A stretch of 64,000 nucleotides of DNA from Lysobacter enzymogenes (lineage in GTDB: Bacteria; Pseudomonadota; Gammaproteobacteria; Xanthomonadales; Xanthomonadaceae), in the NCBI RefSeq assembly GCF_900106525.1, contig NZ_FNOG01000009.1:1-64000 (forward strand), read 5' to 3'. The notes beneath the pieces were generated by a model, which had not been told where the DNA came from, searched no databases, and saw nothing but the letters and a program-made list of their open reading frames with translations. The translations under genes were made by a program, and so were the position numbers. Position 1 is the stretch's first letter. The number at the start of each line of letters is the position of its first letter. This document shows, piece after piece, positions 3,191 to 64,000 of this stretch.

Positions 3191-3754
3191 TCAGGCGCCT
3201 TCGCCGAGCTGCGTCTCCAGTTCGCTGATCCAGGCCACAGTGATGCTCTCCATCGTCACCGCGTAGATCAGCGGCCGCACCGAGCCGGACGAGTACGACT
3301 GCGCGATGAAGCGCGCGTGCCGCTCGCGGAACGCCTGCCAGGCCTCGTGCGCCTGTTCGAACGCGGCGCGGCCATCGCCGTCGAGTTGGTCGCGCAGGTG
3401 TGCGACCACGCCGTCCAGGCGGGTCTGCTCGCGGCTCAGTTCGGCCAGGGCCTGGCGGTTCATGTCGGACTGGCTGACCGCGTCGTCGCCCTGATCGCGG
3501 GCGATCGCCTCGGCCTTGCCGACGTAACTGTCGGCCACGCGCACCGCGCGTTCGGCCTTGCCGATCAGACGGCTTTCGAAGCGTTGCAGTTCCTCGACGC
3601 TGGTGTGGGCGCCGTCCAGTTCCTGCTTGAGCGCGAGCAACTGCTTGCCACGCTCGATCGCGTCGACCGTGCCGCGACGTTCGGCGATGCGTTGGATGAA
3701 GTAGAAGGCCCAGGTGAGCAGGGCGCCGATGACGGTGAAGATGAGCTGTTCCAT
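3191..3754 (-). CDS. Membrane-anchored protein with LprI-like C-terminal domain
   Basis: 187 residues. Residues 3-20 form one hydrophobic helix (LIFTVIGALLTWAFYFIQR). A charged, probably coiled-coil segment spans ~28-110. The C-terminal ~70 residues (AHEAWQAFRERHARFI, then a Ser/Gly turn and VTMESITVAWISELE) match the helical pattern of the DUF1311/LprI lysozyme-inhibitor-like family, though the usual Cys residues are absent. It may be an envelope protein with the C-terminal domain outside the membrane (inference). I do not recognise a specific homologue. Confidence 0.75.
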   Translation of the reverse strand: MEQLIFTVIGALLTWAFYFIQRIAERRGTVDAIERGKQLLALKQELDGAHTSVEELQRFESRLIGKAERAVRVADSYVGKAEAIARDQGDDAVSQSDMNRQALAELSREQTRLDGVVAHLRDQLDGDGRAAFEQAHEAWQAFRERHARFIAQSYSSGSVRPLIYAVTMESITVAWISELETQLGEGA

Positions 3755-11002: not shown

Positions 11003-11635
11003 ATGAGCGCCCCCGCCCTGCGCTGGTACTTCGACTTCGTCTCGCCGTTTTCCTATCTGCAATGGCGCAAGCTGCGCGAACTCATCCACGAACGGCCGGT
11101 CGCGCTGGTGCCGATCGTGTTCGGCGCGGTGCTGTCGGCGCACGCGCACAAGGGCCCGGCGGAAATTCCGGGCAAACGCGAATTCACCTATCGCCACGTG
11201 CTGTGGCAGGCGCGGCGCGAAGGGGCGACCTTGCGCTTTCCGCCCGCGCATCCGTTCAACCCGCTGGCGGCGCTGCGCCTGTGCGTAGCCGCCGGCAGCA
11301 CGCCGGCGGCGGTCGACGCGATCTTCGACTGGATCTGGAGCCAGGGCCAGGCGGGCGACAGCGTCGAGGCGCTGAGCCCGGTCGCCGCCGCGCTCGACGT
11401 GCCGGCCGACGCCGTCGCCAGCGAGGCGGTCAAGAACGCGTTGCGCGCGAATACCGAGGCGGCCTTGCTTGCCGGCGTATTCGGCGTGCCGACGTTGTGC
11501 ATAGGCCCGCATATGTTCTGGGGCAACGATGCACACGACTTCGCCGTTGACGCGCTGCAACATCCCGAATTGCTTGAAGATCCCGAAATGCAACGCCTGA
11601 AACAGCTGCCAATCGGCGTGCAGCGCCGGGGCTGA
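11003..11635 (+). CDS. 2-hydroxychromene-2-carboxylate isomerase family protein (DsbA/kappa-GST fold)
   Basis: 210 residues behind a strong AAGGAG. The N-terminal WYFDFVSPFSYLQW is the family signature, with Ser where DsbA has its first active-site Cys. FGVPTLCIGPHMFWGNDA carries the cis-Pro loop. Characterised members are glutathione-dependent isomerases in naphthalene catabolism or kappa-class GST-like enzymes. No aromatic-degradation gene is nearby, so the substrate is unknown. Confidence 0.88.
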   Translation: MSAPALRWYFDFVSPFSYLQWRKLRELIHERPVALVPIVFGAVLSAHAHKGPAEIPGKREFTYRHVLWQARREGATLRFPPAHPFNPLAALRLCVAAGSTPAAVDAIFDWIWSQGQAGDSVEALSPVAAALDVPADAVASEAVKNALRANTEAALLAGVFGVPTLCIGPHMFWGNDAHDFAVDALQHPELLEDPEMQRLKQLPIGVQRRG

Positions 11636-49874: not shown

Positions 49875-50783
49875 ATGAAGGCCTTCGCCGATCTCGTCCT
49901 GTTCGTGCGCGCCGCCGACGCCGGCAGCCTGTCGGCCGCGGCGCGCGCGCTCGACATCAGCCCGGCCGCGGCCAGCGCCACGCTCAAGCGGCTGGAGGCG
50001 GAACTGCACGCGCAGCTGTTCGTGCGCTCCACTCGCAGCCTGCGGCTTACTTCCGAGGGCGAACGCTTCCTGCAGCACGCGCGCGAAGCGCTGCGCGCCA
50101 TCGACGAGGGCGAGCAGGCGCTGCGCGGCGATCAGGCGGTGCTGCGCGGCAGCCTGCAATTGTCGATGCCGTCCGATCTCGGCCGCAGCCTGGTGTTGCC
50201 GTGGCTGGACGGGTTTCTCGCAGCGCATCCGCAAGTGCAACTGCGCGCCAACCTGTCCGACCACTTCGCCGACGTCTACCGCCAGCCGGTGGACGTGGCG
50301 CTGCGCTACGGCCCGCCGCCGGACTCGAGCCTGATCGCGCTGCCGCTGCGCGCCGACAACCGCCGCGTGCTGTGCGCCTCGCCGGATTATCTGCGCCGCC
50401 ACGGCGAACCGGCCGATCCGCAGGAACTGGCCGAACGCAATTGCCTGCGCATGCTGATCCGCGGCGAAACCCAAGACCGCTGGCGGCTGACCCGCGGCGA
50501 CGACGTGCGCGACCTGCGCGTGCGCGGCGACCGGGTCAGCGACGACGGCCACGCGGTCAAGCGCTGGGCGCTGGCCGGGCACGGCATCGCCTTCAAGTCG
50601 TGGCTGGACGTGTCGCAGGAAGTGCTGGCCGGGCAGTTGCGTGTGCTGTGTCGCGACTGGCGCGGCGAACCGGCGCCGCTGAACCTGGTCTGCCCCGACC
50701 GGCGCCTGCTGAGCCCTCTGGTGCAGCGGCTGCGCGAATTCCTGCGCGAGCGTTTCGAAGCGATCGCGCCGCCGCCCGAGTGA
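49875..50783 (+). CDS. LysR-family transcriptional regulator
   Basis: 302 residues. The N-terminal winged helix-turn-helix (MKAFADLVLFVRAADAGSLS, then ALDISPAAASATLKRLE) is followed by a substrate-binding domain with the LQLSMPSDLGRSLVLPWLDG start typical of the DsdC/AaeR-like branch. It is divergent from the VOC gene by ~120 bp, the usual LysR arrangement. Confidence 0.93.
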   Translation: MKAFADLVLFVRAADAGSLSAAARALDISPAAASATLKRLEAELHAQLFVRSTRSLRLTSEGERFLQHAREALRAIDEGEQALRGDQAVLRGSLQLSMPSDLGRSLVLPWLDGFLAAHPQVQLRANLSDHFADVYRQPVDVALRYGPPPDSSLIALPLRADNRRVLCASPDYLRRHGEPADPQELAERNCLRMLIRGETQDRWRLTRGDDVRDLRVRGDRVSDDGHAVKRWALAGHGIAFKSWLDVSQEVLAGQLRVLCRDWRGEPAPLNLVCPDRRLLSPLVQRLREFLRERFEAIAPPPE

Positions 50784-50802
50784 TCCGGCGAAACAACGGA
50801 CG

Positions 50803-50841
50803 AAAAAAAGCCCTCTCCTTTGCCGGAGTCCGGGAGAGGGC
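50803..50841 (-). terminator. Rho-independent terminator of the metallophore-type operon
   Basis: On the minus strand GCCCTCTCCC pairs with GGAGAGGGC and is followed directly by seven T. It lies 33 bp downstream of the MFS exporter stop, the last of ten co-directional genes. It may also end the convergent LysR transcript, but the T-run is on the minus strand. Confidence 0.8.
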
Positions 50842-50873
50842 AACTAAAGCGACGGGGAAGGGAAAGCTGTGCG

Positions 50874-52094
50874 CTAGGCGGGCGCCGCTTGCCGGCGCAG
50901 GGCGAGATGCAGGCCGAGCGCGCTGAGCAGCCCGACCGCGCAGAACGTCGCCCACGGCAGCCACGGCCGCGCGCCGGACGCGGCCGCGTCCATCAGCCAA
51001 CCGCCGGCGATGTTGCCCAGGCCGCCGCCGACGGCGAGGCTCAGCGAGCTCACGCCGAGGAAGGTGCCGAGCGCGCGCGCGTCGGCGAGCCCGGCGATCA
51101 GGGTTTGCTGGGTCGGACGGGTCAGCACCGCGCCGACCGCATAGCCGGCGACGCAGGCGAGCAATTGCGGGTACGTCGCGGCCCAGGCGATCGCGCCGGT
51201 CGACAGCGCCATCAGCGTCACGCCGAGCACCAGCAACTGCGCCGCGCTCAACCAGCGATCAAGCCAGCGCACCAGCCCGTACTGCAACGCGACGGTGATG
51301 CCGGCGCTGAGCGCGAACATCGCGCCGACTCCGTCGACGCTGCCGGCCAGCGCCTGCGCCAGCAGCGGGAAGCTGATGTTGATCTGCACCGCCAGGAACC
51401 AATACAGCATCAGCCAGCCGACCAGCGCCAGAAAGTCGCGGTTGCGCCGCACCAGCCCCAGGCCGTGGCGCAGCGGCGGCGGTTGCGGCGGCATCTCGAA
51501 CGTCGGCAGCAGCTTCAGCGCGATGACGAAGTTCAGCGCGAAGCACGCCGCCGCGGCCAGGCACACGACGCGGAAATCGAAACGCAGCAGGGCCACGCCG
51601 AGCAGCGGCCCGAGCGTGGTCGCCACGCCGCTGACCCAGTTGCTGATCGCGTAATAGCGCGGCCGGGTCTGCGCGTCGGTGAGCGCGGCGATGCTGGCCT
51701 GATACGGCGCTTCGAACATCGCCCCGCCCAGCGCCGACAGCGCCATCGCCGCCAGCAGCAGCGGCAGATCGTCGGCGAAGGCGAGGCTGGCGAAACCGGC
51801 CGCGCGCAGCAGCACGCCCAGGCAGATCATGCGCCGCGCGCCGAAGCGGTCGGACAGCATGCCGCCGAGCAGGGCCAAACCCTGCTGCAACAACTGCCGC
51901 ACCGCCAACGCCAGACCGACCGCGGCGGCGGCCATGCCCAGGCTGTCGACGTAATGCACCGCCACCAGCGGCATCAGCATGGCGAAGCCGGCCACCATGA
52001 AGAAGGTGTAGACCAGCAACCCGGCGAGCGCGCGCTTGCGCGCGGCTTCGTCGAGGTCGGGCAATCCGGCGGCGGGTGCGGCGGAGGCGTTCAT
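50874..52094 (-). CDS. MFS exporter (MdtH-like)
   Basis: 406 residues with 12 predicted transmembrane helices. The motif A region is GGMLSDRFGARRMICLG, between helices 2 and 3 as in drug and siderophore exporters. It is the last gene of the ten-gene row. The start is 8 bp from the DUF364 gene stop, so co-translation is likely. It probably exports the product of the four preceding biosynthetic genes (inference). Confidence 0.88.
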   Translation of the reverse strand: MNASAAPAAGLPDLDEAARKRALAGLLVYTFFMVAGFAMLMPLVAVHYVDSLGMAAAAVGLALAVRQLLQQGLALLGGMLSDRFGARRMICLGVLLRAAGFASLAFADDLPLLLAAMALSALGGAMFEAPYQASIAALTDAQTRPRYYAISNWVSGVATTLGPLLGVALLRFDFRVVCLAAAACFALNFVIALKLLPTFEMPPQPPPLRHGLGLVRRNRDFLALVGWLMLYWFLAVQINISFPLLAQALAGSVDGVGAMFALSAGITVALQYGLVRWLDRWLSAAQLLVLGVTLMALSTGAIAWAATYPQLLACVAGYAVGAVLTRPTQQTLIAGLADARALGTFLGVSSLSLAVGGGLGNIAGGWLMDAAASGARPWLPWATFCAVGLLSALGLHLALRRQAAPA

Positions 52095-52102
52095 GCGCTG
52101 GC

Positions 52103-52942
52103 TCAGGCGGCCTCGCGCGCGCCGATGCGTTCGGCCCGATACAGATGGATCGGCGTGGGATCGGCGCTGAACTGCGAGAACGGAAACGGTTCGGCCGACA
52201 CCGCGGCGACGCCGTGGCCGAGGAAGCGCGGCACGATCGCGCTGCCGGTTTGCGCGTACACCACCAGGCCGATGCCGCGCTCGCGCGCGACCTCGACGAT
52301 GCGGTCGAACGATCCGTTGCTCAAGGTCATGCCGGTGGCGATGACCAAGTCGGCCTGCGCCAGCACCACTTCCATATCGGCGATGACCTCGGTGCCGTCG
52401 GCGGTGCGGCGCAGATTGAAATCGCAGGGCAGGCAGGTGCCGCCGCGCGCCTGGATCGCTTCGACCAGCGGATTGACCACGCCGATCAGGCCCACGCGCA
52501 TGCCCGGCCGAATGTCGAGCAAGCCGGCGATGGCGGCGTCGCGCGCCTTGGCCCGCTCCAGCGGCGTGCCGTGCGGCAGCAGCAGAGTCTGCGCCTGCGC
52601 TTGTTCCCGATGCGGATAGGCCAGGGCCAGGTAGGCGTCGAGCGCGGCCACGCGCACCGGCGTGCGCTCGTCGCGCAACAGCTCGGCCAGGCTGCGGCCG
52701 GACAAGTCCTCGGCGATGGCCGACTCGAGCTGGTCGCGCTCCAGGCAGCAACCGCCGAACGCGGATTCAGCGCGCAGCACCAAGTAGTAATTGCGGTACT
52801 TGGTGTCGGTGCCCGGGAACTGGGTGCTCTGGCGGACCCAGAACGCGCCGACCGCGTGCAGTTGCGCAGGATCGGGGCCATGGGCGCCGCGCAGGACGGC
52901 TTCGGTGAGGTCGGCGACGGTATGGGGAACGGGCGGATTCAT
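52103..52942 (-). CDS. DUF364 / Rossmann-like putative heavy-metal-chelation protein
   Basis: 279 residues. The N-terminal half (~1-110) is an alpha/beta domain with NYYLVLRAESAFGGCCLE. The C-terminal half (~145-270) is Rossmann-like: GMRVGLIGVVNPLVEAI, then ADLVIATGMTLSNGSFDRIV, matching the DUF364 signature. Cys pairs at 65/66 and 170/173 could bind metal. DUF364 proteins have been proposed to act in metal chelation on structural grounds; no reaction is established. It sits between the ATP-grasp and exporter genes. Confidence 0.82.
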   Translation of the reverse strand: MNPPVPHTVADLTEAVLRGAHGPDPAQLHAVGAFWVRQSTQFPGTDTKYRNYYLVLRAESAFGGCCLERDQLESAIAEDLSGRSLAELLRDERTPVRVAALDAYLALAYPHREQAQAQTLLLPHGTPLERAKARDAAIAGLLDIRPGMRVGLIGVVNPLVEAIQARGGTCLPCDFNLRRTADGTEVIADMEVVLAQADLVIATGMTLSNGSFDRIVEVARERGIGLVVYAQTGSAIVPRFLGHGVAAVSAEPFPFSQFSADPTPIHLYRAERIGAREAA

Positions 52943-52979
52943 GCGCGGCTCGTGAAGTAAGCGGAAAAGGACGCCGCGA

Positions 52980-54257
52980 TCAGGCGGCGGGAGCGACGGT
53001 TTCGTCGGCGTAACGCAAGCGCAGCCCGGCCACGGCGCGCTCGGCGTGGGCGCGCGCGTCCAGGCCGTGCGCATCGGTGGCGATCACGTGGCCGAGATAG
53101 CAGGCGTTGTCGATCGGCGCCGACACGTCGGTGTCGGCCACCGCGGCCAAACTCCAGCGCGCGATGTTCGGATCGGCGTCGAGGGCATCGGCGCCGTCGA
53201 GCGCGAGCGCGCGACCGGCGCGCACCGGCACCACGAATTTGATCGCCGCGCTGGCCACGCCGGTGTCGCGGCGCTGCAGGTCCGGTTCGCGGCCCAGCGC
53301 CAGTTCGATCTGCGCGTCGAGCAGGTCGATGCCGGTGGCGCGCTGGATCAGCTCGGCGATGTAGTTGCCGCCGGGACGCGGATTGATCTCGACGATGCGC
53401 GGGCCCTTCGAAGTCAGCTTGACCTCGGTATGGCTGAGCCCGTGATCGTGGCCGACCGCGGCCAGCGCGCCGCGCACCAGCGCTTCGACCTGCTGCGCCA
53501 GTTGCGGATCGAGCCGCGCCGGGAACATGTGGCCGTCCTCGATGAAATAGGGAAAGCCGGTGAGGCTCTTGTCGGTGATGCCGATCACCGTGGTGCTGCC
53601 GCGGTAAGTGCAGGCCTCGACGCTGACCTCTTCGCCGTCCATGAACTCTTCCAGCAGCAGCAGCGGCACCCGCGCCTGCTCGCGGAAGTTGCGCGGGAAC
53701 GCGGCCAGCGCGTCGAAGGACTCGCGCAGCTGCGCTTCATCGCGCACCAGCTTGACGAAGGCGCTGGATGCCAGGTCGGTGGGCTTGACCACCAGCGGAT
53801 AGCCGATGCGCGCCGCTTCCTCGCGCACCTGCTCCCATTCGCCGGCCACGGCGAACTTCGGGTTGGGCAGGAACGCGCGTTCGATCGCCTCGCGCACCAA
53901 GTCCTTGCGCCGCTCCATCACTACGTTGTCGGAGAACGCTTGCGGCAGGTTCAGCGCCTGCGCCACTTCGGCCACGGTGCCGATGTAGTAGTCGCAGATC
54001 GTCACCACGCCGTCGAACTCCAGCACCTCGTGCTGGGCGCGCAGGAACTCGACCAGCGCGGTCACGTCGTTGGTATCGAAGCTCAGCACATTCTCGGCAT
54101 GCTCGATCACCGGATGGATCTCGCGCGAACGCGGATCCTGGTAGTGGCCGCGGTTGCGGGTGACGAAGGTGTAGCGGTGGCCGAGCCGGGCGATCGCCGG
54201 CGGGAAAATCCGGCCGGTGCCGCCGACCCAGCTTTCGATCATCAACAAATGCGCCAT
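52980..54257 (-). CDS. ATP-grasp carboxylate-amine ligase
   Basis: 425 residues from the ATG at 54257. ATP-binding Lys158 in YPLVVKPTDLASS, acidic LLLEEFMDGEEVSVE, Glu278 in SHTEVKL, and the Mg-binding loop VEINPRPGGNY (289-299, Glu290 and Asn292) define an ATP-grasp fold. These enzymes activate a carboxylate as acyl phosphate and couple it to an amine. The FPYFIEDGHMFPARL loop and the overall layout resemble amino-acid ligases of dipeptide antibiotics. The likely role is to join the unusual amino acid made by its neighbours to a second acid. Confidence 0.87.
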   Translation of the reverse strand: MAHLLMIESWVGGTGRIFPPAIARLGHRYTFVTRNRGHYQDPRSREIHPVIEHAENVLSFDTNDVTALVEFLRAQHEVLEFDGVVTICDYYIGTVAEVAQALNLPQAFSDNVVMERRKDLVREAIERAFLPNPKFAVAGEWEQVREEAARIGYPLVVKPTDLASSAFVKLVRDEAQLRESFDALAAFPRNFREQARVPLLLLEEFMDGEEVSVEACTYRGSTTVIGITDKSLTGFPYFIEDGHMFPARLDPQLAQQVEALVRGALAAVGHDHGLSHTEVKLTSKGPRIVEINPRPGGNYIAELIQRATGIDLLDAQIELALGREPDLQRRDTGVASAAIKFVVPVRAGRALALDGADALDADPNIARWSLAAVADTDVSAPIDNACYLGHVIATDAHGLDARAHAERAVAGLRLRYADETVAPAA

Positions 54258-54282
54258 GGGGCGAAGCTCCGTGGAAAGGGAT

Positions 54283-55341
54283 TCAGTGCGCGGCCGCGGG
54301 CTGCGCCGCGGCTGCGGAAACGGGAGAAAGCGCCGGCTCGAACGCGGCGCGGTTCCAGCGCATCGCCGACCACGGCAGGCGCAACTGGTCCAGCCGCTCC
54401 ACCGGCGCCGGTTGTAGATCGTCCAGCGCCAGCGCTTCGTCGAAGCGCGCGAACACGCCGTCGACGTAGCGGTGGCCGGTGTCGGCGGCGAGGAACACCA
54501 CGTTGCGTTCGGGATGCAGCCGCGCTTCGCGCTGCGCGACCAGATAGCAGCAGCCGCTGGACAGGCCGGCGAACAGCGCATGCTCGCGCAGCAGCGCCAC
54601 CGCGCCGGACAGGCCGTAATCGAACGAGACCCAGTGCACCTGGTCGTACAGCGCGTGGCGCACGTTGCGGAACGGGATCGAGCTGCCGATGCCGGCGATG
54701 ATGATGCCGGGGTCTTCGATGTGTTCGCAGCCGAAGGTCATGCTGCCGAACGGCTGCACGCCGATCAGCTCGACCTCGCCTGCACGCTCGCGCAGCGCGC
54801 GGGCCAGCCCGCCGGTGGAGCAGCCCGACCCGACGCCGCCGATCAGGCTCAACGGCGCGCCGCGCACGCCGTCGGCGATCAGTTCGGCGACCGGCTCATA
54901 ACCGCAGTAATGGATCTCGTCGTGGTACTGCTGCATCCAGTGCAGTTCCGGATCGGCCGCCATCAGCTCGCGGATGCGCGCCACCCGCAGGCTCTGGTCG
55001 AGCTTGAGCGTGGCCTGCGGTTCGACCTGCTCGACCGTGGCGCCGAGGATGCGCAGCTGCACCATCAAGGTCTTGTCCACGGTCTTGGAACCGACGATGC
55101 GGCAGTTGAGCCCGTACTTGTGGCAGGCCAGCGCCAGCGCATAGGCGTAGATGCCGCTGGAGCTGTCCATCAGCGTCGCGCCAGGGCGGATGCGACCGCT
55201 GGCGAGCAGGCGTTCGACCGCGACCAGGGTCGAGTAGACCTTCATCGTCTCGAACCGCGCCACATACAGGTTCGGCCCCAGCCGGACCAGGTCGGGCGCC
55301 TTGATCGCATCGGCGATGTGGGCGTGCACGGCCGCGCTCAT
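54283..55341 (-). CDS. PLP-dependent cysteine-synthase-like enzyme (SbnA-like)
   Basis: 352 residues, fold type II. The likely Schiff-base Lys is Lys34 in ARFETMKVYSTLVA. The substrate loop reads DSSSGIYAYALA (59-70) and the phosphate-binding loop IGGVGSGCSTGG (167-178). The nearest functional relatives are O-phosphoserine-using enzymes such as SbnA, which replaces phosphate by glutamate's amine on the way to 2,3-diaminopropionate. Here the preceding gene encodes a PduX-like kinase and overlaps it (ATGA), so the substrate may be O-phosphothreonine or O-phosphoserine (inference). No SbnB partner is seen. Confidence 0.83.
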   Translation of the reverse strand: MSAAVHAHIADAIKAPDLVRLGPNLYVARFETMKVYSTLVAVERLLASGRIRPGATLMDSSSGIYAYALALACHKYGLNCRIVGSKTVDKTLMVQLRILGATVEQVEPQATLKLDQSLRVARIRELMAADPELHWMQQYHDEIHYCGYEPVAELIADGVRGAPLSLIGGVGSGCSTGGLARALRERAGEVELIGVQPFGSMTFGCEHIEDPGIIIAGIGSSIPFRNVRHALYDQVHWVSFDYGLSGAVALLREHALFAGLSSGCCYLVAQREARLHPERNVVFLAADTGHRYVDGVFARFDEALALDDLQPAPVERLDQLRLPWSAMRWNRAAFEPALSPVSAAAAQPAAAH

Positions 55342-56279
55342 GGCCCGGCCTCGATCATCCGGCATTGCCGGCCGAGCCCGGCGAAGAACGCCGACAGCTC
55401 GCCCAGCCGCATCGGCTCCGGCCGTTGCGCGAACAGATAGCCGATCAGGCTGCCGGTGTGCGCGACCACCACGCCGTCGGCGCCGAGTTCTCGGCGATGG
55501 CGCAGCATCATGTCCAGGTGCGGCTTCGGCGTCACCCACTGCGCCAGCTGCGCGCTGCGCGTGGCGACTTCGCAGATCGCCGCCGCATCGCCGCGTTCGA
55601 ACGCCTCCAGCGCCAGCTCCAGATGCACGCGATAGGAAGACTGGTGGCGGTGGTAATGCTGCAGCAAGGGCTCGGCCAGCTTTTCGGTTTCCACCGTGCC
55701 GCCTTCATCGATGTAACAGGCGTGCAGGCGCGGCGCCGGGCCGAATTCGCGCAGCACGCGCTGGCGCCCGCTGAGATACAGCGCGTAGCGGTCGAGAAAC
55801 ACGCTGTCGGAGCGCTCGATGCCGCGCAGCAGCTCGGTCAGCGCGTCCAGGGGCGTGTGCAGCGCGAACACTCGGTCCAGGCAGCGCACGGTCGCGACCA
55901 CGTCGGCGGTGGAACTCGCCATGCCCTTGCCGACCGGCAATTCGCTGTCGTGGCTGAAGCGCCCCGGCGGCAGCGATTTGCCGTGCAGGCGCAGATACGC
56001 CTCGATCGCGCGCCGGCACTTGTCCTTGCCGTCGAGATCGCGCTCGAGATCGCCGTCCTCGCCCGGCAGGAAATGCATCCAACTGTAGCGCCGCACCGGC
56101 AGCGAGATCAGGCCGATGTGCAGTTCGCCGTCGTGCTCGCACGGCCCCTGCCACAACTCGCCCAAGGTGCCGTGGCACACGCCGCTGTAAGCCGCGCGCA
56201 ACGCGCTTTGCGGCGCCAGCGCGGCCGCGCCCGCGGGTTCGCGGCGCGGAACATCCTTCGATTCGTACCGTTGCAACAT
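55338..56279 (-). CDS. GHMP kinase, PduX/L-threonine-kinase-like
   Basis: 313 residues from the ATG at 56279, with GGGGAG at ideal spacing. The N-terminal SGVCHGTLGELWQG (32-45) and the ATP loop PVGKGMASSTAD (115-126) are both diagnostic of PduX-type kinases within GHMP. PduX makes O-phospho-L-threonine for cobalamin side-chain synthesis. No cobalamin gene is in the window, so here the kinase probably supplies a phosphorylated hydroxy-amino acid to the adjacent PLP enzyme (inference). Confidence 0.83.
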   Translation of the reverse strand: MLQRYESKDVPRREPAGAAALAPQSALRAAYSGVCHGTLGELWQGPCEHDGELHIGLISLPVRRYSWMHFLPGEDGDLERDLDGKDKCRRAIEAYLRLHGKSLPPGRFSHDSELPVGKGMASSTADVVATVRCLDRVFALHTPLDALTELLRGIERSDSVFLDRYALYLSGRQRVLREFGPAPRLHACYIDEGGTVETEKLAEPLLQHYHRHQSSYRVHLELALEAFERGDAAAICEVATRSAQLAQWVTPKPHLDMMLRHRRELGADGVVVAHTGSLIGYLFAQRPEPMRLGELSAFFAGLGRQCRMIEAGP

Positions 56280-56302
56280 GCGCATCTCCCCGAGCGCGAC
56301 GA

Positions 56303-58240
56303 TCAACCGTCGAAATCCACCGTCAGCTGCGCCACGTAGCGGCGCCCGTCGATGAGGCCGAAACTGTTGTTGCCGTAGATGTTCCAGGTGAAGGTGTCGC
56401 CGACGTTCGCCACCAGCAGGCGCAAGCTCGCCGGTGCATCGCCGAGGCGGAAGCGGTAGCGCGCGCCCACATCGACCAGCGCATAGGCCGGCACCACGTT
56501 GCGGCCGTCGCGCGAGGCCACGCGCTCGCCGTAGCGGCTCATCGAGGCGTCGAACGACCAGCCCGGCAGCATCGGCGGGCGATACTCGACATCGGCGCGC
56601 AGCATCTGCTCGGTCTGGCCGATCGGCCGGTCGCCGACCCGGCCCAGCCGCACCGCTTCGCCGTTGACCCGCGGCCGCATCAGCACCGCGCCGGCCACCA
56701 AGGTCCAGTTGTCGGCGGGCTTGCCGCTCAGGCTCAGCTCGACGCCGCGATGGCGCACCTCGGCCAGCGGCCCGAACACGTTGTTCTCGTCGGTGGCGAA
56801 ATACGGCTTGCGCACGTCGAACGCGCCGGCTACCAGTTTCAGATCGTCGCCGAGCTTCCAACGCAGCCCCGCATCGGTCTGGCGGGTGCGGATCGCCGGC
56901 AGCGCCTGGTTGCGGTTGGCCGCGTCGTCCGGCGCGATGCCGCTCTCTTCCAGTCCGCGCGTGTGGCCGGCGTACAGCGCCAGACGCGGGCTCAGCTGCA
57001 GCGACACGCTGGCGCTGGGCAGCCACGGATCGTCGCGGCTCAGCGCCGGCGCCGCGCCGGGTTGCAGGATGCGCTTGCGGTACTGGCTGCGCTGGATGCC
57101 GAGGTTCCACTCGCCGACCTCGCGCCAACGGCCTTCGTAAGCCAGTCCTGCGGTCCATTGTTCGACCCGGTCGTGGGTGCGTTCGCCGAACTCGAACGCC
57201 TCCGGCCGCGGCTGCGGCCGCGGTTCGCCCAGCGGCCGCCAGCCGTAATCGATCGCCGGCGCCGAGCCGCCGTATTCGCTGTCCACGCCGCGCCCGCGCA
57301 CCGCCGCGTGCAGCACGTGCAGACGCGGGCCTTCGCGGAAACTGCGGCTCAGCCGCAGCTCGCCGCTGGTGGAGGCGTAACGCTGACGCGGGTCGGCGAC
57401 CACGCGCTCGCGGGTCAGCCCCTCGCGCGTGGTGTCGGTGAACAGCTCGGCGAAACCCTGCGGCTGGTTGTTGATCGAACGCACCACGCCGCCGGCGAAG
57501 GCCCAGTCCGCGCCGATGCGCGCCTTGGCCAGCACGCCGAAATTGCGGCTGTCGTATTCGTTGTCGCTCCAGCTCTGGCCGAAGTGGCGGCGACGCTCGA
57601 TCTTCGGCGGCCGGTAAGGACCGGCAGTGAGGATGGTCGGCGCCACTTCCTCGTCGCGGCCGCGCGAGATGCTCCAGAACGGCAGGATCTCGACGTTCTC
57701 GCTCGGCCGCCAGCGCGGCACGAAGCCGGCGCGCACGTAGCGCGCGTCGGCGCCGTCGTAATACTCCTCGCGCGCCAGCGCCAGGCTGGCGGCAATGCCC
57801 AGTCGGCCTTCGATGAGCGGCAGGCGCGCGTCCAACTCCAGCGCCGGCGCGCCATAGGCGTTGAGCGCGCCGAGCACGCTGAGCACGCGCTCGTCGCCGG
57901 CTTTCTTCAAGCGGTAATCGACGATGCCGGTCGGCGCCGGGAACGGATAGTTCAGCGCCGACGGGCCGACCCGGATCGTCGAGCCTTCCACCAGCGCCGG
58001 CGGCACCGTGCCCTGGCGGTCGAAATAGACGCCGTCCATGCGCACGTTGCCGGCGTCCACCGGCGAGAAGCCGCGCACCTGCTTGGCGCTGTACAGGCCG
58101 ATGGTCTCGTTGCCGAGCGTCGCGCCGAACGCGTCCTCGGCCGCGGTCACCGCGTTGTCGCCGACGCGCTGCGCCGGCGCGGCCGCCGCGTACAGCAGTA
58201 GGGCCGCGCCCAGGCGGTATGCGGATGCGTTCGCGCGCAT
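56303..58240 (-). CDS. TonB-dependent receptor (first of two)
   Basis: 645 residues from the ATG at 58240 with a signal peptide (LGAALLLYAAAAPAQ). The plug is recognisable (GNETIGLYSAKQVRGFSPVD, then NVRMDGVYFDRQG), but no clear TonB box precedes it. The barrel contains ~22 strands and ends RRYVAQLTVDFDG. The start is 2 bp from the stop of an ABC permease. The kinase gene follows after 23 bp, placing an outer-membrane receptor between exporter and biosynthesis genes. Confidence 0.85.
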   Translation of the reverse strand: MRANASAYRLGAALLLYAAAAPAQRVGDNAVTAAEDAFGATLGNETIGLYSAKQVRGFSPVDAGNVRMDGVYFDRQGTVPPALVEGSTIRVGPSALNYPFPAPTGIVDYRLKKAGDERVLSVLGALNAYGAPALELDARLPLIEGRLGIAASLALAREEYYDGADARYVRAGFVPRWRPSENVEILPFWSISRGRDEEVAPTILTAGPYRPPKIERRRHFGQSWSDNEYDSRNFGVLAKARIGADWAFAGGVVRSINNQPQGFAELFTDTTREGLTRERVVADPRQRYASTSGELRLSRSFREGPRLHVLHAAVRGRGVDSEYGGSAPAIDYGWRPLGEPRPQPRPEAFEFGERTHDRVEQWTAGLAYEGRWREVGEWNLGIQRSQYRKRILQPGAAPALSRDDPWLPSASVSLQLSPRLALYAGHTRGLEESGIAPDDAANRNQALPAIRTRQTDAGLRWKLGDDLKLVAGAFDVRKPYFATDENNVFGPLAEVRHRGVELSLSGKPADNWTLVAGAVLMRPRVNGEAVRLGRVGDRPIGQTEQMLRADVEYRPPMLPGWSFDASMSRYGERVASRDGRNVVPAYALVDVGARYRFRLGDAPASLRLLVANVGDTFTWNIYGNNSFGLIDGRRYVAQLTVDFDG

Positions 58241-58242
58241 GC

Positions 58243-59775
58243 TCACAGCTCCGCCGGCCATTGCCGCAGGCGCCGCAGCGCCCACCCGCCCAACGCCGCC
58301 GCCAGCAGCGCCAGCCACAGCGCCGTCGGCAGCGCGCCGGTCACCCGCGACCACGCCGGCGCTTCGTTCCAGGCGTAGGCCGGAATCGCGTCGAACTCGA
58401 AGAAGTTCATGCGCCCATAGCTGTCGGCGCGCGGGCGCGGCGTCGGCGCGGCGATCTGGCGCTGGATGCGCGGATAGAACCAATCGCGCAGCTGGCGCTG
58501 ATAGGCCGCGGTCTGATGTTCGAAGCGGCGGTGGCGCTCGGCGTCGGTGCCGGCCAATCGCGCCAGCGCCTGCTCCATGCCTAGCGGCGGCGCGACGAAG
58601 CCGGCCCACTGCGACCAGCGCTCGCGCACGCTGCGCGCTGATTCCTGGCGATCGCGCAGCGGCTGCAGGCGGCGTTCCAGTTCCGGCGCGAGGAAACTCA
58701 GGCGGGTGGCGTAGTCGAGGCCGGCGATCTTGTCGAGCGCAGCCGACAGATCGGCGCGGGCGCGGAAGTCGCGCGTCAGCAACGCATCGCGCTCGCCGGC
58801 GATGGCGTCGTTGGCGCGGCGCTGCGCATCGACATAGGCGATCGGCGTGGGCGCGTCGCCCAGCCGCGCGGCGACGCCGCTGCCGAGCAACGGCAGTCCG
58901 ATCGCCAGCACCGCCCACACCGCGCTCATCAGGCTGATCGCGCCGGCGGCGCCGGGCCACGCGGACACCACGACGAATCCCAGCGCGGCCCAGAACGCCA
59001 GGTAGGCCACCACCAGTGCCGCCGACGCGATCAACTCGGGAACGGCCGCGCCCAGGTCGGCGCCGGCCGAGAACAACGATATCGCCAGGCCCAGCAGCGC
59101 CGGCGGCGCCAACCAGGCGAAGATCGCGGCGATGCGCGCGCCCAGCCACGCGCGTGGGCCGACCCGCTGCGCGGCGATCAGCCGCAGCATTCCGTGATCG
59201 CGTTCGAACGTGGCGAGCAGGCCGATCAGCACGATCACCGCCACCGGCAGCAGATACACCAGCACGAAGCCCAGATCGAAACGGCCCAGGCCGAGCGCGC
59301 GCGGGTTTTCGAAGTCGTAGGCCGGCTCCACCCCGAACGGCGTTTCCAGCTTCACCGGCAGGCGCGTGGGCGTCAGGTCGCTGCCGCCGACCGCCAGCGC
59401 CGACAACGGCAGGTTCGGCTTGTAGCTGTGGGCGCGCAGGAAATAGCGGCTGAAACCGGCGATGTCGGTCGGGTCTTGCCAGTACGGCACCGGCTCGGCC
59501 GCGGGCTCGGCGTAGCGGCGGGCGCGTTCGAGAATTTGCTGGGTCCAGGCCAGATCGCTGGCGCGGCTGCGTTCGATCGCGCGGTCCTGGCCGCGATGCA
59601 GCACCGCGCCGCTGTGCGCGCCCCACAGCATCGCCACGAACAACAGGCCCAGCACCGTCCACAGCAAGCGGCTGCGGCCGATGTGGCGCAGTTCCCAGCG
59701 CAACAGCTCGGCGAAGCCGGCGCTGCGCGCTTCCGGCAGCGCGAGCGCGCCGGCGTATCCTGCGGGCGCGCTCAT
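58243..59775 (-). CDS. ABC-2-type permease, DUF3526-like (second)
   Basis: 510 residues. It has one transmembrane helix near 35-50 (LLWTVLGLLFVAMLWGA), a long extracytoplasmic domain (~55-170), five helices (~170-300; VLVYLLPVAVIVLIGLLATF and following), a second soluble domain and a final helix at ~480. This is the DUF3526 ABC-2 layout. It is homologous in plan to its neighbour; the two probably form a heterodimer. The start overlaps the neighbour's stop by 4 bp. Confidence 0.83.
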   Translation of the reverse strand: MSAPAGYAGALALPEARSAGFAELLRWELRHIGRSRLLWTVLGLLFVAMLWGAHSGAVLHRGQDRAIERSRASDLAWTQQILERARRYAEPAAEPVPYWQDPTDIAGFSRYFLRAHSYKPNLPLSALAVGGSDLTPTRLPVKLETPFGVEPAYDFENPRALGLGRFDLGFVLVYLLPVAVIVLIGLLATFERDHGMLRLIAAQRVGPRAWLGARIAAIFAWLAPPALLGLAISLFSAGADLGAAVPELIASAALVVAYLAFWAALGFVVVSAWPGAAGAISLMSAVWAVLAIGLPLLGSGVAARLGDAPTPIAYVDAQRRANDAIAGERDALLTRDFRARADLSAALDKIAGLDYATRLSFLAPELERRLQPLRDRQESARSVRERWSQWAGFVAPPLGMEQALARLAGTDAERHRRFEHQTAAYQRQLRDWFYPRIQRQIAAPTPRPRADSYGRMNFFEFDAIPAYAWNEAPAWSRVTGALPTALWLALLAAALGGWALRRLRQWPAEL

Positions 59776-61175
59776 GGCCGCAACCTGCGCGCTGCCAGCG
59801 CCAACAAGCCGGCAGCCAAGGCGCTCCAGCCGAGCAGGCCGAACAGCGCCGGCGCGGCGTTGCGCCAGTTCGCGGCCAAGGCGGGCGCCGGCGCTTCGAA
59901 CTGCGGAATCTGCGCCCACAGCGATTCGTTGTTGGTATGCCGCGGCTGCGCGCCGTTGAGCGGATGCGCCATCACGTCCTCGTTCATGCGGTTGACCAAC
60001 GCGCGCCGATAGCGCTCGGCGGCGTCGATGAAGCGGCGGTGGTGGCCGAAATCGCTGCCGGCCAGCATCGGCGACAGGCTCTGCATCGCCGTCGCCGGGC
60101 TCAGCCAGCCCCAGGCGGCGAAGGCGCGGTCCTGCGCGGCGACGCGGTCGTAGAAGCCGCCGAGCACGCGGTCGAAGACTTCGTGCGAATGGCGCTCGCT
60201 CAGGTCGAGCTCGGCGCCGCGCGCGTCCACGCTCAAGTCCTTCGCGTCCTTGGCGCCGTAGCGCGCGAGCAAGGTTTCGCGGTGCTTCTTGGCTTCCTCG
60301 GCGGTCCAGAACGAGGGCGCCTCGTCTTGCAGTTGCTGCTTGATCTGTTGGCTCGACGGCAGCGGCAGCGCCGCGTCGACCGCGCTGCTGGCCCAACGCG
60401 GCAATGCCAGCGCCAGCACGATCCACAAGCCGAACAGCACCGCCAGCGCGCCGCGCACGCTGCGCGTCAGCAGCGACACCGCCACGCCCAATGCGCTGAG
60501 CACGCCCAGGTAGGCCGCCATCGCCGCCGCCCACAGCGCCAGCCGCAGCGCCACGTCCGCGCTCAAGGCGCCCAGCGCCGCGCTGGCGACGGCCGCGGCG
60601 ACGGTCACCGGCGCCAGCAGCGCCAACAACAGCGCCGACCAGATCGCCGATGTCTTGGCCGCGACGATCGCGCGCGGCCGCAGCGCCGCGCCCAGCGCCA
60701 GACGCAAGGTGCCGCGCTCGCGATCCATCGCCACCGCGGTGAACGCCAACAGGAACGCCACCAGCGGCGCGAACGCGATCAACAGGCTGGCCGGGCTGGC
60801 CAGGCCCGCGCGCTGCAGCGCCGATGCCTCACCCTGCGGCCGGTACAGCATGTCGTTCTGCACGTGCGCTTCCAGCCACACGGTCTGGCCGACGAAGGGC
60901 TGCGCGCCCGGGTCCAGCGCCGCCAGCGGCGGCGCCGGCTTGAACGCGAAGATGCTGTAGTGCGCGGCCGAATGCGGATCCTTCTCGCCCTGCCCCAGCC
61001 AGCGCGCGCGTTCGGCGCGCGCGGCCTCGGTCTTGGCCGCGTTGCCGGCGGCCACCGTCGCCAGATCGAACGAGAACGCCAGCAGCACCAACGCGGCCAG
61101 CGCCAACAGCGCCCACCACGCGCGCCGGTCGCGGCGCAGCAAAGTCCACTCATAAGCGGTCAGCGAGGCGCTCAT
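59772..61175 (-). CDS. ABC-2-type permease, DUF3526-like (first)
   Basis: 467 residues with an N-terminal helix (WWALLALAALVLLAFSFDLA), an extracytoplasmic loop, helices ~145-275 (LLIAFAPLVAFLLAFTAVAM and following), a large soluble DUF3526 domain, and a last helix near 450. Overlaps of 4 bp on both sides with the ATPase and the second permease show strict coupling. The substrate is unknown. Confidence 0.83.
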   Translation of the reverse strand: MSASLTAYEWTLLRRDRRAWWALLALAALVLLAFSFDLATVAAGNAAKTEAARAERARWLGQGEKDPHSAAHYSIFAFKPAPPLAALDPGAQPFVGQTVWLEAHVQNDMLYRPQGEASALQRAGLASPASLLIAFAPLVAFLLAFTAVAMDRERGTLRLALGAALRPRAIVAAKTSAIWSALLLALLAPVTVAAAVASAALGALSADVALRLALWAAAMAAYLGVLSALGVAVSLLTRSVRGALAVLFGLWIVLALALPRWASSAVDAALPLPSSQQIKQQLQDEAPSFWTAEEAKKHRETLLARYGAKDAKDLSVDARGAELDLSERHSHEVFDRVLGGFYDRVAAQDRAFAAWGWLSPATAMQSLSPMLAGSDFGHHRRFIDAAERYRRALVNRMNEDVMAHPLNGAQPRHTNNESLWAQIPQFEAPAPALAANWRNAAPALFGLLGWSALAAGLLALAARRLRP

Positions 61176-61918
61176 GCGGCGACGGCCCCCGCAGCATCCA
61201 GCTCTTGCAGATACAAAGCCTCGATCTGCGACGCCGACAGCTCGGCGGTGCGGCGCTCGGTCAACAACCGGCCCGCGCTCAGGATGCCGAGGCGATGCGC
61301 CACGTCCTTGACCCGGTACAGATCGTGCGTCGCCATCAACACCGCCACGCCGCGCCGCGAAGCCGCGCGCACGCCGTGCGAGAGATCGTTGGCGGCGCTG
61401 GCATCGAGCCCCGACGTCGGCTCGTCCAGCAGCAGCAACTGCGCGTCCTTGGCCAAGGCGATGGCGAGACCGACCTTCTGCCGCATGCCCTTGGAGAAAC
61501 CGCCGGCGCGGCGGGTGTGCGCTTCGGCCTGCAGGCCGGCCTGGGTCAGCAGATCGCGCGCTTGCTTGCCATCGATGCGGCGGCCGCCGAGCAGAGCGAA
61601 ATAGCTGAGGTTCTCGATCGCGTCGAGCTGCGGATGCAGCATCACCGTTTCCGGCAGATAGGCGGTCCGGGCGCGCGCGCCGAGACGGTCGCGGGCCACG
61701 TCGATGCCGGCGACTTCGATGCGGCCGCCGTCGGCGTCCAGGAAGCCCAGGATCAGGTTCAAGGTGGTGGTCTTGCCGGCGCCGTTGGGGCCCAGCAGCG
61801 CGTACACCTCGCCCGGCGCGATCCCCAGCGACAGCGATTGCAGCGCGTGGCGGTCGCCGAAATCCTTGCACACGCCGTCCAGGCGCAGTGCATCGGTCGC
61901 TGTCTGCAGCAAGCTCAT
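61172..61918 (-). CDS. ABC transporter ATP-binding protein (ABC-2 type)
   Basis: 248 residues. Walker A GPNGAGKTTT, signature FSKGMRQKVGLAIAL, Walker B QLLLLDEPTSGLD and switch His in VLMATHDLYRV. The SKGM signature is typical of CcmA/NatA/YadG-like ATPases that drive ABC-2 export. The start overlaps the stop of the upstream TonB-dependent receptor gene by 4 bp (ATGA). Confidence 0.92.
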   Translation of the reverse strand: MSLLQTATDALRLDGVCKDFGDRHALQSLSLGIAPGEVYALLGPNGAGKTTTLNLILGFLDADGGRIEVAGIDVARDRLGARARTAYLPETVMLHPQLDAIENLSYFALLGGRRIDGKQARDLLTQAGLQAEAHTRRAGGFSKGMRQKVGLAIALAKDAQLLLLDEPTSGLDASAANDLSHGVRAASRRGVAVLMATHDLYRVKDVAHRLGILSAGRLLTERRTAELSASQIEALYLQELDAAGAVAA

Positions 61919-64000
61919 AGATTCACCCTCAAGGTCAGCTCGACGCTGCGCGGCGCGCCGAGCACGAACTGGTCGGCGGCGCCGCCGGTCCAGTCGGCGT
62001 ACAGCGCATCGCCGAGGTTGCGGCCGTACAGCGCGATCTCGCCGAACGGCAAGCGGTAAGCGACGCTGGCGTCCCACACCGTGCGGCCGGCGACGCGCAG
62101 GCGGTTGGCGTTGTCGGCGTACCACGGGCCGACGTAGCGCGCGCCGGCGCCGACGGTCAGCGGCAGCGCATCGAAGCGATAGCTGGCGCGCAGCTGCGCC
62201 AGCCGTTCGGGCACGTTCGGCGGCACGTTGCCAGCGCGGTCGATGCCGCCGGCTTCGCGCAATTTGTCGAAACGCGCATCCAGCGCGGCCAGGCTCGCCT
62301 CGACCCGCAGCGCGCGGGTCAGCGCGGCGGCGGCGGTAAGCTCAATGCCGCGCGAGGATTGGGTGCCGCCCTGCACCGACAGATTGGCGTTGCGCGGATC
62401 GCGGGTGACGATGTCGTCCTGCTCGATCCAGTACGCGCTTGCGCCCAGATCGACGCGGCCGTTCCACACGCTGCTCTTGATCCCGGCCTCGGCCGAACGG
62501 CCATGGGTCAACTCAAAGCGCGAATTCGCCAGCGACAGCAGCGGCAAGCTGCCGACCGGCGCCACCGCGGTGCTGTACTGCGCGTACAACTGGGTCGTCG
62601 GCGCAAGATCGTAGACGGTGCCGAGGCGCCACGACAGCGGCTCGTAGCTGCGCTCGAAACGCGTGATCGCGCCGGTGTTGCGGTCCTCGATGCGCCGCGC
62701 CAGTTCGATCCGGTCGTAGCGCAGGCCGGCCAGCAGCAGCCAGCGCTCGCTGAGGTTGAACGCGTCTTCGGCGAACAGCGAGTACACCCGCGTGCGCGAA
62801 TCGAAATCGACGCGGTTGCCGGCGCCCGGGAAGTTGGCCGCGGTGTCGGCGAATCCGGCGAGGCCGCGCTGCGGCGCGAACGGATCGACCGGCGCGGTCG
62901 TGCCGAAGCGGCGCATCACCGCGAAATCGCCGTTGCTGATCTCCACGCCGACCGCGGCGCGGTTGCGGTGCCCGCCCCAGTCGCTGTCGGCCGACAAGCT
63001 CGCGCGTTCGACCCAGAAGCGCTGGTCGTGCTCGATCCGGGTGGTGCCGCGGTCGAGCAGGCCGCTGCGCGCGTTGAAGGCGTAGGTTTCCGAGTTCCAC
63101 CAGCGCCGCTTGGCGTCGTAATAGCTGAATTCGTTGGAGAAACGCAGCCCGTCGCCGATCTGCCAACCGACCTTGCTGCGCAGCCAGTCGCCGCGCGAAT
63201 CCTGCAGGCCGTTGTCGACGTTGTAGTTGCGCCGGCGCAGCGAGCGGTCGAGCACGCGGCCATCGCTGCTGCGCACCAGCGAACTGGGATCGCGCGCGAG
63301 CGCGGCCGGAATCAGCGGCGTGCCCCAATACGCGGTGTCGTAGTCGTCTTCGAAATGATCCAGCGCGATATCGACCTCGACCGCATCGCTCGGCCGCCAA
63401 CGCAGCGCCACGGTGGCCGACGTCGCGGCGCTGGCGGTGTCGTCCACGTAACCGTCGCTGCGGCGGTGGCTGACGATCGCGCGCAGCGCCAGGCGCTCGC
63501 CGATGGGCTCGTTGAAGTCGACCGCATAACGCTGGCTGCCGAAGCTGCCGACGCCGATCAGGCCGGCGAACGCGCGGCCGTCGAAGTCCGGGCGCTTGGG
63601 CACCAGGTTGATCGCGCCGGCCAGCGCGCCTTCGCCGTACAGCACCGACGCCGGGCCCTTGAGCACTTCGATGCGCTCGAAGCTCCAGCTGTCGAAGTCG
63701 CGGGTGACCAGCGGCGCGGCGCTCTGGCGCACGCCGTCGTACAGCAAGGCGATCGCGCCGCCGCTGAAACCGCGCATCGAGGCCGTGCCAGGCGAGGACG
63801 GCAACTGCCCGGCCAGCACGCCGGGCGCCGCGTTGAGCGCCTCGACGCTGCCGCGCAGGCCGCGCACCTGGATCTGCTCCTGGGTCACCGTCTCCAGCGC
63901 CGCCGGGGTCTCTCGCGCGCTCAGGCCCAGGCGCGAAGCGGTCGGCGCGGGCCGGTCGCGCGATGCGGTAGGCGTGCCTTCGACGGTGACCTTGTCGAGC
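61915..64000 (-). CDS. TonB-dependent siderophore receptor (second), 5' end outside the window
   Basis: About 695 residues are visible and the start lies beyond the window end. The first visible residues (LDKVTVEGTPTASRDR) look like a TonB box and linker. The plug has QVRGLRGSVEALNAAPGVLA, GTASMRGFSGG and VLKGPASVLYGEGALAG. The C-terminus VLGAPRSVELTLRVNL is typical of FhuA/FpvA-like ferric-siderophore receptors. It is the first known gene of the ten-gene row and overlaps the ABC ATPase by 4 bp. Confidence 0.92.
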   Translation of the reverse strand, partial: LDKVTVEGTPTASRDRPAPTASRLGLSARETPAALETVTQEQIQVRGLRGSVEALNAAPGVLAGQLPSSPGTASMRGFSGGAIALLYDGVRQSAAPLVTRDFDSWSFERIEVLKGPASVLYGEGALAGAINLVPKRPDFDGRAFAGLIGVGSFGSQRYAVDFNEPIGERLALRAIVSHRRSDGYVDDTASAATSATVALRWRPSDAVEVDIALDHFEDDYDTAYWGTPLIPAALARDPSSLVRSSDGRVLDRSLRRRNYNVDNGLQDSRGDWLRSKVGWQIGDGLRFSNEFSYYDAKRRWWNSETYAFNARSGLLDRGTTRIEHDQRFWVERASLSADSDWGGHRNRAAVGVEISNGDFAVMRRFGTTAPVDPFAPQRGLAGFADTAANFPGAGNRVDFDSRTRVYSLFAEDAFNLSERWLLLAGLRYDRIELARRIEDRNTGAITRFERSYEPLSWRLGTVYDLAPTTQLYAQYSTAVAPVGSLPLLSLANSRFELTHGRSAEAGIKSSVWNGRVDLGASAYWIEQDDIVTRDPRNANLSVQGGTQSSRGIELTAAAALTRALRVEASLAALDARFDKLREAGGIDRAGNVPPNVPERLAQLRASYRFDALPLTVGAGARYVGPWYADNANRLRVAGRTVWDASVAYRLPFGEIALYGRNLGDALYADWTGGAADQFVLGAPRSVELTLRVNL

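Follow-up and report, generated by a model that had tools for sequence, protein, structure and literature searches.

The ten-gene operon at the end of the analysed stretch of the Lysobacter enzymogenes genome (GCF_900106525.1, contig NZ_FNOG01000009.1) is very likely a zincophore system repressed by Zur. Judged from its promoter and its gene content, it probably serves to produce and secrete a small molecule that binds zinc, and to take it up again, under zinc shortage. We provisionally file it as a zincophore system: a Zur-type box lies in its putative promoter, and dedicated biosynthetic enzymes, an exporter and an importer (functions as assigned by protein family) are joined in one unit. 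A first-pass annotation of this DNA had proposed an operon for a metallophore-type natural product. This proposal is supported by the conservation of four enzymes and by the presence of Zur-type boxes described below, and the candidate metal can now be sharpened to zinc. The features are as follows, the window being the whole stretch of 64,000 nucleotides that was analysed and coordinates from 64212 upwards lying past its end.

61915-64212, minus strand: TonB1, TonB-dependent siderophore-type receptor (TIGR01783, 248.7 bits, above cut-off)
61172-61918, minus strand: ABC transporter ATPase (PF00005)
59772-61175, minus strand: ABC-2 type permease with DUF3526 (PF12040, PF12679)
58243-59775, minus strand: second DUF3526 permease (PF12040)
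56303-58240, minus strand: TonB2, TonB-dependent receptor (PF00593; TIGR01783 127.3 bits, under cut-off)
55338-56285, minus strand: GHMP-family small-molecule kinase (PF00288)
54283-55341, minus strand: SbnA/cysteine-synthase-like PLP enzyme of the PALP family (TIGR03945 137.9 bits, under the cut-off of 350)
52980-54257, minus strand: ATP-grasp enzyme of L-amino acid ligase type (PF13535, PF18603)
52103-52942, minus strand: DUF364 protein (PF04016, 43 bits, cut-off 23)
50874-52094, minus strand: MFS transporter, probable exporter (PF07690; MdtH model 280.9 bits, under cut-off)
50803-50841, minus strand: intrinsic terminator (hairpin and T run)

According to the listing of open reading frames these ten minus-strand genes are tightly packed from position 64212 down to the terminator. 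The start of TonB1 lies 212 bp past the end of the window and was taken from a longer stretch of the same DNA (L002). All ten co-directional genes were found in the order first described, with families confirmed by Pfam and NCBIfam, and the span from beyond the window end to a terminator was likewise recovered. With the chosen starts there are four 4-bp overlaps between neighbouring genes, and the other five junctions have gaps of 2, 17, 25, 37 and 8 bp. TonB2 has an alternative GTG start at 58246 that creates a fifth 4-bp overlap; thus the original gap range of 2-37 bp stands, and the five overlaps originally counted are obtained with this GTG start, otherwise four. The terminator hairpin (-19.8 kcal/mol, z -2.1; matched in stability by 5 of 200 shuffles) is followed by a T run, and a simple terminator scan missed it. 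No match to the Pfam plug domain was found in TonB2. About 1.1 kb upstream of the operon an open reading frame (L002, 5354-6205, minus strand) resembles by eye a 2OG-Fe(II) oxygenase.

Among 149 genomes of the family DUF364 is encoded in seven including our own, and the same seven contain the kinase at E <= 1e-100, with weak kinase matches (E ~1e-4) in two further genomes. The six other carriers possess all ten genes in identical order, so this arrangement is far beyond chance. In one related locus (L016) the match to the second DUF3526 permease is split into two parts in different frames at about 11272-11278, where the gene may be interrupted or the assembly wrong.

The assignment to zinc starts from a near-perfect palindrome of 24 bp, AATGAAATGATATATCGTTTCATT, at positions 64241-64264, which lies 28 bp before the start of TonB1 and resembles a Zur box. 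Similar palindromes occur upstream of the operon in six relatives. A search of the genome with the 24-bp palindrome itself returned the operon site alone, and a consensus from the relatives was needed. This consensus, GAAATGTTATAACRTTTC, was drawn from the operon promoters of the relatives and searched at three or fewer mismatches with the reversed pattern as control. In the 6.26-Mb genome of L. enzymogenes it occurs in two places (reversed control 0), the second being 36 bp before a gene for a znuD-like TonB receptor (NF038289 430.6 bits, below the cut-off of 950; ZnuD structure 4rdr, E 1.9e-75). Approximately 2.5 kb beyond the end of this gene a Zur-like gene is found (NF008646 143.6 bits, cut-off 167; zinc uptake regulator structure 4mtd, E 6.4e-34). 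Over our own genome and the six relatives the consensus was present at the operon in seven of seven genomes, at the znuD homologue in five of seven and in one other place, again with no match of the reversed control. As the consensus was written after those promoters had been seen, the matches at the operon are not independent, whereas those at znuD are; two of the seven genomes have no znuD match. A promoter-like sequence (TTGAC with a spacing of 17/18) precedes the box in six of the seven genomes, our own copy lying past the window end, and a sigma-70 scan of 50600-64000 found no promoter. By its position after this promoter-like sequence the putative box lies where a repressor site is expected.

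It is improbable that the operon encodes an iron siderophore system under control of Fur, with a diverged Fur box in place of the zinc-like one. In favour of this reading, the siderophore-receptor model TIGR01783 matches both receptors, one of them above cut-off, the importer in actinobacterial loci (see below) is of FecCD type, and the L. enzymogenes operon promoter contains a stretch six mismatches away from the 19-bp Fur consensus. Against this, the best Fur match in the six relatives has 9-10 mismatches, and the sole other genomic copy of the motif lies at the znuD-like gene. In addition, no IdeR/DmdR iron box was detected at five or fewer mismatches in 59 actinobacterial loci (shuffled controls over 30 loci gave 0-1).

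Neither ZnuA nor ZIP family proteins were found in the L. enzymogenes genome. We considered this as a sign of dependence on the operon and dropped it: ZnuA is present in 18 of 149 genomes of the family and in none of the seven operon carriers, and because of this family-wide rarity its absence from our genome carries no weight of its own. A replacement is possible in a single case, within genus g14, where the operon carrier (G115) has no ZnuA and two members without operon (G013 and G089) have it.

Among the enzymes of the operon the kinase belongs to the GHMP kinases as a divergent member. Its NCBIfam matches reach 20-24 bits to IspE as well as to mevalonate and homoserine kinases, far under the respective cut-offs, and its AlphaFold model (pLDDT 90.2) has mevalonate kinase and IspE as nearest folds. 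Its initial description as a PduX-like kinase is retained for the kinase, whereas the NCBIfam matches, which comprise weak hits to other GHMP kinases, contain nothing that points specifically to PduX. For the PLP enzyme the family profile has SbnA, the enzyme of staphyloferrin B synthesis, as best solved relative (E 2.8e-47), although the score of the enzyme on the SbnA equivalog model is far under its cut-off. Its lysine K34 is invariant across 23 aligned sequences and expected to hold PLP, a catalytic role inferred from alignment with SbnA. The best solved relative of the ATP-grasp enzyme is the L-amino acid ligase BL00235 (E 3.6e-26). DUF364 combines the PF04016 match with a typical DUF364 fold: its AlphaFold model (pLDDT 92.0) has the DUF364 structure 3l5o as nearest fold in Foldseek (TM 0.62-0.70; also 3npg). 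The protein of 3l5o, Dhaf4260, thus has Pfam family and fold in common with the operon protein at an identity of 14% in the structural match. The first structure of a DUF364 protein was solved in 2010 (PMC2954201). In the searched open-licence literature, as far as its available excerpts go, we found no assigned reaction for DUF364 and no pathway or substrate for Dhaf4260. Three of the operon's enzymes had no match in PADLOC, and viral contigs searched with DUF364 contained no relative.

From these families a working scheme can be proposed. When zinc is scarce, Zur would leave its putative box, which lies where transcription is expected to begin. The GHMP kinase would then phosphorylate a hydroxy-amino acid, and the SbnA-like PLP enzyme may catalyze a beta-replacement in which the phosphate is swapped for the amine of another amino acid, yielding an aminopolycarboxylate. 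The ATP-grasp ligase would join an amino acid through an amide bond and DUF364 would carry out a further step, before the MFS protein exports the product and the TonB receptors retrieve its zinc complex, with both directions of transport predicted from family. The ABC/DUF3526 transporter, for which we know of no zinc role, might act at the inner membrane or in ligand handling. In staphyloferrin B synthesis the adduct formed by SbnA is split to diaminopropionate in the SbnA/SbnB pathway. Since no SbnB-like match was found among the ten operon proteins with Pfam and NCBIfam, the adduct would not be split in this way here. The operon further differs from the SbnA/SbnB system in the low score of its PLP enzyme on the SbnA equivalog and in having Zur-type instead of iron boxes.

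In its overall design the operon would work like the opine zincophores staphylopine and pseudopaline, that is by zinc control, a small amino-acid-derived chelator, an exporter and dedicated uptake. In contrast with these systems no match to a nicotianamine-synthase-like protein or an opine dehydrogenase was found among its ten proteins (Pfam and NCBIfam). In a related locus (L023) a substrate-binding protein reaches 114 bits with the NikA and 60 bits with the CntA model, both below cut-off. [S,S]-EDDS, like the product predicted here, is an aminopolycarboxylate that is made without NRPS, and its gene set probably differs from the one described here. Occurrence of opine zincophores has been mapped (PMC7438024). 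The accessible text of PMC6103462 describes the [S,S]-EDDS cluster of Amycolatopsis japonicum as a metallophore cluster controlled by Zur, a property the operon is predicted to have in common with it. Similarly, coelibactin of Streptomyces coelicolor derives from a Zur-controlled metallophore cluster (excerpts of PMC5472717 and PMC6103462) but, unlike the predicted product of the operon, is a nonribosomal peptide (excerpt of PMC3430247). Neither NRPS modules nor an IucA/IucC-type NIS synthetase were found among the ten operon proteins with Pfam and NCBIfam, in line with the original inference that the row works without such enzymes. Going by its ten predicted genes, the operon belongs to none of the opine, NRPS and NIS systems. 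As had been presumed at the outset, no description of this gene set was found in the open-licence literature (without preprints) among the matches listed. Gene content and promoter are best read as those of a zincophore operon whose enzyme set is unusual.

Conservation outside the family was analysed in a scan with one genome per species, in which 542 stretches encode DUF364 relatives. The best 80 of these 542 were analysed and comprise 20 proteobacterial-type loci (including one acidobacterial MAG and one record named Bacillus), 53 actinobacterial loci, three from Herpetosiphon and four from Paenibacillaceae. Joint conservation of kinase, PLP enzyme, ATP-grasp ligase and DUF364 had been proposed as a check of the metallophore reading. 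It holds for 19 of the 20 proteobacterial-type loci, the exception (L035) lying at a contig end, but not for actinobacteria, where ATP-grasp was found in none of 53 loci at the 200-bit threshold. DUF364 and the PLP enzyme occur together in 50 of these 53 loci and the kinase in 25, and 26 of them have, within the available stretch, DUF364 and the PLP enzyme alone of the four enzymes. ATP-grasp is present in three of the six actinobacterial plasmid loci analysed (six of nine found). The seven Herpetosiphon and Paenibacillaceae loci contain ATP-grasp, DUF364 and the PLP enzyme with no kinase at threshold. The four-enzyme set is thus not universal and is better seen as a module with a two-gene core of DUF364 and SbnA-like PLP enzyme. 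In three Massilia species (L037, L038, L039) a single uninterrupted reading frame encodes both ATP-grasp and DUF364, in support of a common pathway. The locus of the record Bacillus sp. 2B10 (L042) is a proteobacterial-type operon (DUF3526 permeases, TonB2, kinase to MFS) that scores nearly as the one of a Sphingomonas MAG (L041), and the record may be misnamed or contaminated. Three loci (L021, L022, L023) show a second kind of gene set, in which DUF364 and ATP-grasp are accompanied by a distant PLP enzyme, a dipeptide epimerase, MFS, a methyltransferase and an OppA/NikA-like importer; a Zur-type box is found near the ATP-grasp gene in L021 and L022 and none in L023.

Transport genes accompany the enzymes in many of these loci. 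An importer component of FecC type was detected in 36 and one of OppA type in 14 of the 53 actinobacterial loci, and importers of FecBCD or NikA/OppA type together with MFS proteins recur beside the enzymes in related loci. This bears on two further explanations. According to the first, which we regard as having a small chance of being correct, the product of the operon would be an antimetabolite or signal under zinc control that is secreted to act on competitors, with the receptors importing something else. Lysobacter species are antibiotic producers, SbnA-like and ATP-grasp enzymes are also known from dipeptide antibiotics, and the bacilysin BacD and dapdiamide models of NCBIfam match weakly among the operon proteins. 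Nevertheless, the recurrence of uptake genes (TonB, FecBCD, NikA/OppA type) with these enzymes in several phyla speaks against this explanation, and control by Zur suits acquisition better. The second explanation, by which the genes would stand in for housekeeping enzymes in order to spare zinc, is highly improbable. Such replacements are common in Zur regulons, among whose members are paralogues of ribosomal proteins and enzymes like FolE2 (PMC6103462, in its accessible part). But the operon also comprises an ABC transporter and an exporter besides its two receptors, and dedicated transport genes recur elsewhere. Moreover, we know of no zinc enzyme that this gene set could replace.

The zincophore reading of the Lysobacter operon gains further weight from boxes in distant bacteria. 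With the published Streptomyces Zur box, for which the ChIP-derived consensus from S. coelicolor was used (PMC5472717, seen in excerpt), 29 exact matches were obtained in 25 of 59 actinobacterial DUF364 loci, compared with a mean of 0.03 and a maximum of one match for 40 shuffled control palindromes, run for exact matches over the same loci. For 21 of these 29 boxes a cluster gene starts at most 400 bp downstream. Allowing one mismatch gave 61 boxes in 43 of 59 loci, and 37 of the 61 (in 36 loci) are located within 400 bp upstream of a cluster gene versus 7.4 expected at random. Conversely, an exact box is missing from 34 of the 59 loci, 16 loci lack one even at one mismatch, and several of the loci end at contig ends. 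As the actinobacterial loci are mostly from related Streptomyces, these boxes do not represent independent events.

In all four Paenibacillaceae loci a Bacillus-type Zur box (four to five mismatches from the consensus) is found 17-353 bp before the ATP-grasp gene, and ten controls over all 19 non-actinobacterial loci gave one match in total. The other 15 non-actinobacterial loci showed no Zur box above controls, including one Bacillus-type match with six mismatches (L043), and gamma-type Zur and Fur boxes stayed at control level in the 19 loci scanned; for the ten-gene operons this is a weak test, as the 10-kb flank ends short of the operon start, which in the window lies 11.3 kb upstream of DUF364. 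A survey of palindromes in 12 non-actinobacterial loci revealed one Zur-like case, TTATGTTATAACATAA, located between divergent genes (L040). In a Cohnella locus (L061) Zur-type boxes with five to six mismatches at 3226, 3249, 19772 and 20029 lie outside the cluster promoter and perhaps belong to other zinc genes.

That Lysobacter, actinobacteria and Paenibacillaceae have different types of Zur box ahead of one shared gene core links DUF364 to zinc acquisition. We lean slightly towards the view that DUF364 and the SbnA-like PLP enzyme form the core of a widespread and so far undescribed class of zincophore pathways, spread over at least three phyla each with its own type of Zur box, and that DUF364 catalyzes a chelator-forming step new to metallophores. 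To our knowledge few types of bacterial zincophores are known. The two central enzymes of the Lysobacter operon appear to adjoin zinc-control sites in distant bacteria too, and with 542 stretches encoding DUF364 relatives (the best 80 of them analysed here) the elucidation of a single product could annotate many genomes.
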